In this document: piece after piece, positions 16,413 to 18,769 of the stretch
How the letters are laid out: each line of letters begins with the position of its first letter
Numbering within the stretch: the stretch's first letter is position 1
Source: Cytophagales bacterium
GTDB taxonomy: Bacteria; Bacteroidota; Bacteroidia; Cytophagales; 172606-1
NCBI GenBank assembly: GCA_030446715.1
Contig: JAUJMU010000003.1
Span: 248,001 to 312,000 of the forward strand
Direction: 5' to 3'
DNA length: 64,000 nt
Notes under the pieces: model-generated
The model's input: the letters and a program-made list of their open reading frames with translations, nothing else
Databases searched by the model: none
Told to the model about the DNA's origin: nothing
Translations under genes and position numbers: made by a program

Positions 16413-18062
16413 TCAGTACATCTTCTCGTAGTATTCCGTAGCCATGCGGTCGGAATCAAAGAAGGGAAGGATGTCCTGCATGCTGTTCTTCACGATTTGC
16501 AGCCAGCGGTCCGGCTGGCGGTAATACGCCGGCAGGATAACCTTCTCAAGGGTGTCCATCAGATTGTTGTGGTCAAAATCATCCTGTTCGTGCAGCCAGG
16601 CATTTGCATCTGCCGGTGGCGCGGTAAAGGAATTCTCGCCGTTCCGGGCAAATTCGGGTATCCAGCCGTCGGGCACCGATAGGTTCACGCCACCATTCAT
16701 GGCTGCCGTCATGCCGCTGGTACCGGATGCTTCGCGGGTGATCCGGGGGTTGTTGAGCCATATATCGGCACCACCCTTCAGCAGTCTCGACAGCCGGAGC
16801 TCGTGGCCAACCAGCACCGAGCAGTTTCGGTATTGTTTGGTGGTTTCTACGATCCGGTTGTAGATCGACACCGCCATGAAGTCCTGTGGATAGGGTTTGC
16901 CGGCCCAGATGATCTGCACGGGAAACTCTTTATTGGTCACCAGCGCGTGGAACCGTGCCTGGTCCCGCAGCAGCAGATCGGCCCGCTTGTATTCGGCAAA
17001 GCGCCTTGCCCACACAATCGTCAGCACGTTGGGGTCGTAAATTTCTCCGCACTGATCGGCTACCTCTTCAAACAAAGTCCGCTTGCGTTCCCTTTTTCTT
17101 TCCCGCATGGCCTCATTATTTCCGGATTCCATTGCCTCGTACAGAACCGGGTCGGCCCAGTAGCGGCGGTTCTGGGCGTTGGTGACGTGAATAATCGGAG
17201 AAACGTCGGTGTGGCGGCTCCACATCTGGCGGGCCACCTCGCCGTGCATGGCCGAAACCCCGTTGGATAGCCGCGAAAACCGCAATGCCACCAGGGTATG
17301 GTCCATGATGTCGCCCAGCGTGCCGGTCAGTTTCCGCACCTCTTCGGAGGATAGACTGCCAAAGAATCCCAGTTTTTCCAGCATCCGCAGATCAGTGCGG
17401 TCGTTGCCTGCCTCCACCGGGGTGTGGGTGGTGAATACGAGTCTTTTCTGTACCTCCTTTTTCTTGCCGAATTTCTGGAAGAGGTAAAATGCCAGCGGCA
17501 GGGCGTGGGCCTCATTCATGTGGTAGGTTTCCGGCTGAAAACCAATCAGGTCCAGCAACTTTGCGCCGCCGATACCCAGCAGCATGCTGGCCGCAATTTT
17601 GGCTTCGGTGTTGGAGTCGTAAAGCCGGTGGCTGATGGTGCGGGCCAGGTAATCGTTTTCGGGCAGGTCGGTGGTGAGGAAAAACATGGGCGTGGAGCCA
17701 AACACCTCCGGCGGCAGGTAATGCGCCGCCACCTTCACCGGGTGCTGGTTTACCATGATGTCGAACCGCAGACCCGTATCCACCAGGAAGCCGTAGTGTT
17801 TTTCCTGAAAGAGAACGTCCATCGTCTGGTCGCCTTTGCGGACCTGATCGTAGTAACCATATTTCCAGAGGATGCCGATGCCGATCAGATTCTGCTTCAG
17901 GTCGTGGGCACTGCGCATGTGCGAACCGGCAAGAAAACCAAGGCCTCCGGAGTAGATTTTGAATGGCTGGTGAATGGCGAATTCCATCGAGAAATAAGCC
18001 ACGGGTTTAGCGTAGGCAGGGTTGACCGGATAAGGGAATTGGAACGGTTGAAAGTTGTGCAT
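16413..18062 (-). CDS. Alpha-glucan phosphorylase-like protein, PLP-lysine position is threonine
   Basis: A 549-residue protein of the short glycogen/alpha-glucan phosphorylase group (GT35). Family marks are AYFSMEFAIHQPFKIYSGGL near residue 23, GSHMRSAHDL, YHMNEAHALPLAFYL (about 178-192), VFTTHTPVEAGNDR, ARRFAEYKRADLLL and the C-terminal EASGTSGMTAAMNGG. Classical phosphorylases read EASGTxxMK there and the lysine binds pyridoxal phosphate; here codon ACG (16707-16709, residue 452) gives threonine. Activity as a phosphorylase is therefore uncertain. ATG 18062 is chosen because earlier frame residues lack similarity and the usual start is close to FxYPVNPAYAKPVAYFS. No other glycogen gene is nearby. 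Confidence 0.82.
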   Translation of the reverse strand: MHNFQPFQFPYPVNPAYAKPVAYFSMEFAIHQPFKIYSGGLGFLAGSHMRSAHDLKQNLIGIGILWKYGYYDQVRKGDQTMDVLFQEKHYGFLVDTGLRFDIMVNQHPVKVAAHYLPPEVFGSTPMFFLTTDLPENDYLARTISHRLYDSNTEAKIAASMLLGIGGAKLLDLIGFQPETYHMNEAHALPLAFYLFQKFGKKKEVQKRLVFTTHTPVEAGNDRTDLRMLEKLGFFGSLSSEEVRKLTGTLGDIMDHTLVALRFSRLSNGVSAMHGEVARQMWSRHTDVSPIIHVTNAQNRRYWADPVLYEAMESGNNEAMRERKRERKRTLFEEVADQCGEIYDPNVLTIVWARRFAEYKRADLLLRDQARFHALVTNKEFPVQIIWAGKPYPQDFMAVSIYNRIVETTKQYRNCSVLVGHELRLSRLLKGGADIWLNNPRITREASGTSGMTAAMNGGVNLSVPDGWIPEFARNGENSFTAPPADANAWLHEQDDFDHNNLMDTLEKVILPAYYRQPDRWLQIVKNSMQDILPFFDSDRMATEYYEKMY

Positions 18063-18208: not shown

Positions 18209-18769
18209 TTATTTAACTCTTTCGATGTATTCCCGGGTACGGGTATCCACCCGGATTTTTTCGCCGATGTTGACAAAAAGGGGCACTTTAATTTCAGCGC
18301 CGGTCTCCAGCGTGGCCGGTTTCAGGGTTTTGGTAGCCGTATCGCCCTGCAGGCCAGGTTCAGTGTAGGTGACTTCCAGTTCCACGGAACCGGGGATTTC
18401 GGCCGCAATCGGAGTGGTATTGTCAAAGCTCACGGTAACATTCATGCCTTCCTTGAGGAACTTCTCGCCATCTCCGAACAATATACCGTCTACGTACACC
18501 TGATCGTAGGTTTCGTTTTCCATCAGCACGTAGTTATCACCTTCTTTGTAAAGGAACTGGAACTCCTTGGTTTCGACGCGCACAAAATCCAGCGCTTCTC
18601 CGGCCCGGAAGCGGTTTTCGGCGAGTTTCCCCGTGCGGACGTTCCGCATTTTTACCTGATAAAAAGCCCGTAGGTTACCGGGCGTGCGGTGTTCATATTC
18701 CAGTACCTGTACCAGTTCGCCATTAAAACGCATGAAGGCGCCTCTTGAAAGATCGGATGTAGTTGCCAT
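18209..18769 (-). CDS. efp: Translation elongation factor P
   Basis: A 186-residue EF-P with the normal three domains; it binds ribosomes stalled at consecutive prolines and helps the peptide bond form. Domain I (1-62) starts MATTSDLSRGAFMRFNGE, the middle OB domain includes EKFLKEGMNVTVSF, and the C-terminal domain carries LEVTYTEPGLQGDTATKTLK and ends YIERVK. The tip loop reads HRTPGNLRAF, so residue 32 at the place of the modified lysine 34 of Escherichia coli (PGK) is asparagine. No modification enzyme (EpmA or EarP) was noticed in the window. A TACCTTTG element precedes the gene and a terminator follows. Confidence 0.95.
   Translation of the reverse strand: MATTSDLSRGAFMRFNGELVQVLEYEHRTPGNLRAFYQVKMRNVRTGKLAENRFRAGEALDFVRVETKEFQFLYKEGDNYVLMENETYDQVYVDGILFGDGEKFLKEGMNVTVSFDNTTPIAAEIPGSVELEVTYTEPGLQGDTATKTLKPATLETGAEIKVPLFVNIGEKIRVDTRTREYIERVK

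Follow-up and report, generated by a model that had tools for sequence, protein, structure and literature searches.

Glycogen phosphorylases hold pyridoxal phosphate (PLP) covalently through the lysine of the motif EASGTxxMK, and this covalent bond has long been regarded as odd, because the Schiff base does not participate in the catalytic reaction. As phosphorylase reduced with NaBH4 stays active, the Schiff base is not needed for the reaction. No report of GT35 proteins without this lysine was found in the open PMC literature. The closest described systems to the protein analyzed here (whose residue numbers are used throughout) are the TIGR02094 phosphorylases such as the S. copri glycogen phosphorylase 9l6i, which resemble it in best-matching sequence family, best Foldseek match, catalytic positions and, in one case, operon partner (type II GAPDH). 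In contrast to them, it has no PLP lysine and 19 further positions are fixed differently; the additional length seen in members of 674-924 residues is missing as well. Short phosphorylases of 542-575 residues (loci L083, L155-L158 and L160) share its length and architecture, in some cases within the same genomes, although they are 34-38% identical to it and have Lys at 452 and no Lys at 429. The catalytic and PLP-pocket positions of the E. coli glycogen and maltodextrin phosphorylases (TIGR02093) also align with it, but the PLP lysine is present in those enzymes. The GT5 synthases with ADP (2qzs and 6gne) have the whole-chain GT-B fold in common with it (Z about 30), and we take its R354, K359 and E444 to be the counterparts of R300, K305 and E377 of GlgA, whereas it is not a GT5 member by sequence and appears to lack the KTGG lysine.

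The window, a 64,000-nucleotide stretch of a contig from a Cytophagales bacterium, contains an open reading frame on the minus strand (16413..18062) that starts with ATG and encodes a 549-residue GT35-like protein containing PRITREASGTSGMTAAMNGG. The protein is related to TIGR02094, would be annotated as glgP, and is the only PF00343 match in its own genome. Its PLP-site motif is EASGTSGMTAAMNGG, in which the codon ACG (16707..16709, minus strand) specifies Thr452. Alignment placed this residue opposite the Schiff-base lysine, Lys662 of E. coli GlgP and Lys646 of MalP, in agreement with the initial annotation, which had pointed out threonine in place of the PLP lysine.

Profile searches gave scores over the cut-offs for TIGR02094 (alpha-glucan family phosphorylase; 420.5 bits, cut-off 191.7) and PF00343 (Phosphorylase; 53.2 bits, cut-off 27), and below them for TIGR02093 (44.8 bits, cut-off 552.9) and TIGR02095 (GT5 glycogen synthase; 33.2 bits, cut-off 328.45). 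The other catalytic and presumed PLP-contact positions of GT35 were present. The hhalign comparison detected MalP with an E-value of 8e-14, while the match to GlgA, run as a single sequence, was not significant (E 0.04, probability 1%); the sequence therefore leans to the phosphorylase side. An AlphaFold2 model built from 24 sequences (pLDDT 83.4, pTM 0.87) predicted a GT-B fold, and its top Foldseek matches were the S. copri glycogen phosphorylase 9l6i, in first place, and 20yr. In VIA-align, the model matched ADP-bound E. coli glycogen synthase 2qzs (Z 30.2, 438 aligned residues, 3.2 A), starch synthase IV 6gne (Z 30.1) and 9l6i (Z 30.1). As these three were tied, the fold does not separate the phosphorylase and synthase readings, and the match to 2qzs is a common fold that shows no function. 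Judged by its sequence, the protein is derived from GT35, but it cannot be filed as a normal phosphorylase because the PLP lysine is missing.

The search covered genomes of the same genus, then of the order and the phylum, and residue 452 was read in all loci fetched. The 186 distinct C-lobes carried T (98), S (18) or A (15), amounting to 131, or K (55), and the division coincided with subfamily membership: T, S or A was found in 131/131 subfamily relatives and K in 55/55 relatives outside it. With regard to the question of whether threonine is fixed in homologues, the absence of lysine was thus universal in the subfamily, but the residue in its place varied. Among 183 full-length proteins, identity to the query was 47-100% for the 128 without Lys452 and 29-38% for the 55 with it, with none in between, and the bit scores of the phylum sample showed a similar gap, close relatives scoring no lower than 617 bits and the next match 328. 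Strong matches to the lysine-less gene were detected in 168 of 291 genomes of the order, along with three weak cross-matches. In a tree of 75 proteins, comprising 41 of the 89 Lys452-less alignment rows and 34 Lys452 rows, the Lys452-less rows formed one side of a single branch (SH-aLRT 100, stem of 1.26 changes per column); the motif pattern failed on one of the 124 rows, which was excluded from the tree and from the 89 versus 34 comparison below. The tree contained a single K/non-K change, followed by several changes among T, S and A, and therefore the lysine was lost once and never regained in this sample. The loss of Lys452 is real, ancient and clade-wide.

These results dispose of the view that the threonine reflects a sequencing error or a strain-level mutation. 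The codon ACG is indeed only one base from AAG, and the initial annotation had allowed for both a miscalled AAG and a sequence variant. Threonine was found, however, in two genomes of the same genus with the codons ACG and ACC, which excludes a base-calling error, and the T/S/A residues of the 131 distinct relatives are likewise specified by different codons, so that the probability left for this explanation is negligible. The short form of 549 residues, to which the loss had also been linked, is not its mark either, since relatives of 542-575 residues with the normal lysine exist, some of them in genomes that also contain the lysine-less gene.

A conserved lysine nearby, which the initial annotation had proposed to look for, was found at residue 429 (codon AAG, 16776..16778, minus strand), a candidate for a relocated cofactor lysine. 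Lys429 was present in 131/131 Lys452-less C-lobes and 0/55 Lys452 ones, a perfect lysine swap; the latter carried V (31), I (13), T (8), L (1), F (1) or Y (1) at this site, and among canonical phosphorylases it was Ile in both E. coli enzymes and Tyr in two from Cytophagales. In the comparison of 89 with 34 rows, it was the sole lysine that was invariant in the subfamily and never lysine outside it. Residue 452 varies between T, S and A, whereas residue 429 is invariant, which fits a small residue at 452 that would make room for the new lysine. Besides 452, 19 positions carried a residue that was fixed at 95% or more among subfamily members and seldom seen in the 34 Lys452 rows. Eleven of the 19 lie within the donor lobe (residues 345-480; expected 4.7, p=0.002), and four of them, G419, E421, S425 and K429, are clustered in one segment. 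Lys429 is located in the helix preceding the EASGT loop, by homology one helical turn beyond S425 and on the same helix face; S425 is aligned with Ala619 of MalP, presumably a PLP-lining residue. The two lysine changes share one long stem with about 20 other fixed changes, and as the swap is a single joint event on that stem, it provides no independent link between the two lysines.

The rest of the family pattern was reported as intact by the initial annotation, and this was borne out across the subfamily. Y23, G39, G40, H213, N295, W302, R354, K359, K389, E444, G447 and T448 were kept in 128/128 full-length members, position 353 was R or K in all 128, as in phosphorylases, and position 420 was Y in 119 and H in 9. 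From muscle phosphorylase structures, we take these positions to match those through which MalP contacts PLP and phosphate. Tyr23 (17994..17996, minus strand) corresponds to MalP Y64 and, like W302, presumably borders the former PLP ring; Arg354 and Lys359 in RFAEYK (16986..17003, minus strand) to MalP R535 and K540; and Glu444 at the start of EASGT (16731..16733, minus strand) to MalP E638, which we assume to contact the donor sugar. All four were also conserved in 55/55 Lys452 proteins. The NG86 analysis with a same-genus homologue of 82% identity gave a dN of 0.13 and a dS of 0.96 (dN/dS about 0.13); a second pair was saturated in dS. Given the retained catalytic and PLP-pocket residues and the low dN/dS, the protein is not a decayed pseudoenzyme, and the lysine-less family is under purifying selection and predicted to be functional.

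The genomic surroundings of the gene varied. Genes for Usp, Hsp20, PEP synthase, PfkB, PLD or P-type ATPase were neighbors in 19/22 loci, mostly of Chitinophagaceae, but neighbors of these kinds were found in only 4/20 loci of the query's own order. A lysine-less copy on a Pontibacter plasmid lies two genes after type II GAPDH, and in Pseudorhizobium a Lys452 enzyme directly follows type II GAPDH. A Pyridox_ox_2 (PNPOx-like) gene was located directly downstream of the lysine-less gene in two loci (L034 and L118). It was considered as a source of PLP and not favored, as small Pyridox_ox_2 proteins are mostly of the flavin type. In another locus (L116:5415-8736), a trehalose-6-phosphate synthase/phosphatase fusion and a 351-residue protein with no Pfam match were encoded upstream, and the 351-residue family also adjoins the lysine-less gene in L114. 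The next gene in the window encodes elongation factor P (EF-P; 18209-18769, minus strand), whose loop is PGNLRAF with Asn at the tip, likewise in a genus mate (L104); the corresponding loop of E. coli EF-P, PGKGQAF, carries the modified lysine. A role in protein glycosylation through EF-P was considered and not adopted, as EF-P adjoins the gene in this genus mate but not in the other neighborhoods listed.

GlgB over the cut-off was detected in 60/168 genomes with the lysine-less gene and 18/123 without it (odds ratio 3.2, p 5e-5, ignoring shared ancestry), and was not detected over the cut-off in 108 of the 168. In the query's own genome, GlgB is encoded near a TreS-maltokinase fusion (L135:8978-15835), a proximity that suggests glycogen formation via the maltose-1-phosphate route. 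Searches of the same genome for a full GlgA found an N-terminal piece only, and a GT3 synthase was not found; the GlgA-like remnant is a 290-residue ORF covering the N-terminal half of GT5 (G000 contig C21:8079-8747, L136). One section of a review (PMC11046441) describes a GlgA-GT5 fragment as being kept by Bacteroidetes. A canonical phosphorylase scoring over 1000 bits was found in 10/291 genomes of the order, two of which have the lysine-less gene. A Lys452 enzyme is also present in at least 9 of the 168 genomes that carry the lysine-less gene; the two types are therefore not simple replacements of each other, and a takeover of the normal phosphorylase by the lysine-less gene is correspondingly doubtful. 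Five genomes (G179, G192, G140, G154 and G180; L155-L158 and L160) carry it together with a short Lys452 paralogue of 542-551 residues, and this coexistence argues for different jobs.

The explanation that we tentatively favor, at somewhat less than even confidence, is that the protein is a catalytically active GT-B enzyme acting on glucosyl units, with PLP still bound either through Lys429 or non-covalently. With the other pocket positions kept and a Schiff base dispensable for catalysis, the loss of the lysine, from which the initial annotation concluded that PLP should not be used in the classical way, may yet be compatible with such use. The Schiff-base lysine was lost a single time, on the stem leading to the clade, where the invariant Lys429 also arose, in the helix that precedes the EASGT loop. 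The old pocket would still be occupied by PLP or a different cofactor with a 5'-phosphate, bound by Lys429 or non-covalently. The phosphate of this cofactor would still perform the acid-base work, and the enzyme would still transfer glucosyl units between alpha-glucan and phosphate. The changes E421, G419 and S425 beside the ring weigh against retention of PLP, as a different ligand could be bound there. The narrower proposal, that in this Bacteroidota clade the Schiff-base lysine moved from 452, in the helix that follows EASGT, to Lys429, which would then have to reach PLP, with cofactor, pocket and reaction all kept, is rather doubtful; for a PLP lysine to change place naturally within a single fold would be highly unusual, and we know of no such case.

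The pocket may instead have passed to a nucleotide. An NDP-glucose transferase, with the nucleotide of ADP- or UDP-glucose in the former PLP site, would act as a glycogen-synthase-type alpha-glucan synthase or as a disaccharide synthase, and from the sequence comparisons and the model we consider this main rival reading possible but on the unlikely side. It would account for the tie of 2qzs and 6gne with 9l6i in VIA-align, although this program weighs the fold only and the GT5 chains are shorter. Residue 452 presumably also falls on the second E of EX7E, a motif of NDP-sugar GT-B enzymes, a weak alignment shows similarity between the segment GYExxLS and GlgA GYHEAFS, and the own genome has GlgB with neither a full GlgA nor a GT3 synthase detected. 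The phosphorylase-type Y23 and R/K353 are kept in 128/128 members, however, and the hhalign result places the sequence near MalP and not GlgA. Tyr37, which precedes SGG in 128/128 members, would occupy the place of the GlgA KTGG lysine, as in the Lys452 phosphorylases, in a region that the hhalign match to GlgA did not span. Abandonment of catalysis altogether is improbable. A non-catalytic sensor of glucan or a metabolite, for example in the stress clusters, would agree with the loss of a residue invariant elsewhere in the family and with the Usp/Hsp20-type neighborhoods, frequent as these are in 19/22 loci but not in the own order. Pseudoenzymes usually lose several catalytic positions, whereas H213, N295, R354, K359, E444 and T448 are unchanged in all 128 members; this strict conservation and the low dN/dS likewise speak against the glucan-binding regulator suggested by the initial annotation, and its other suggestion, a hydrolase, gained no positive evidence.

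The lysine-less group is thus probably a working enzyme in which, to judge from the conserved residues, the cofactor is held or replaced in a new way. The absence of the cofactor-defining residue also bears on annotation, as two named plasmid copies are labeled glgP in spite of it and the gene has a strong match in 168/291 genomes of the order. A natural family that lacks the lysine but keeps the machine would test directly what the covalent bond is for; alternatively, it would reveal the way in which a phosphorylase reverts to a nucleotide-sugar enzyme.
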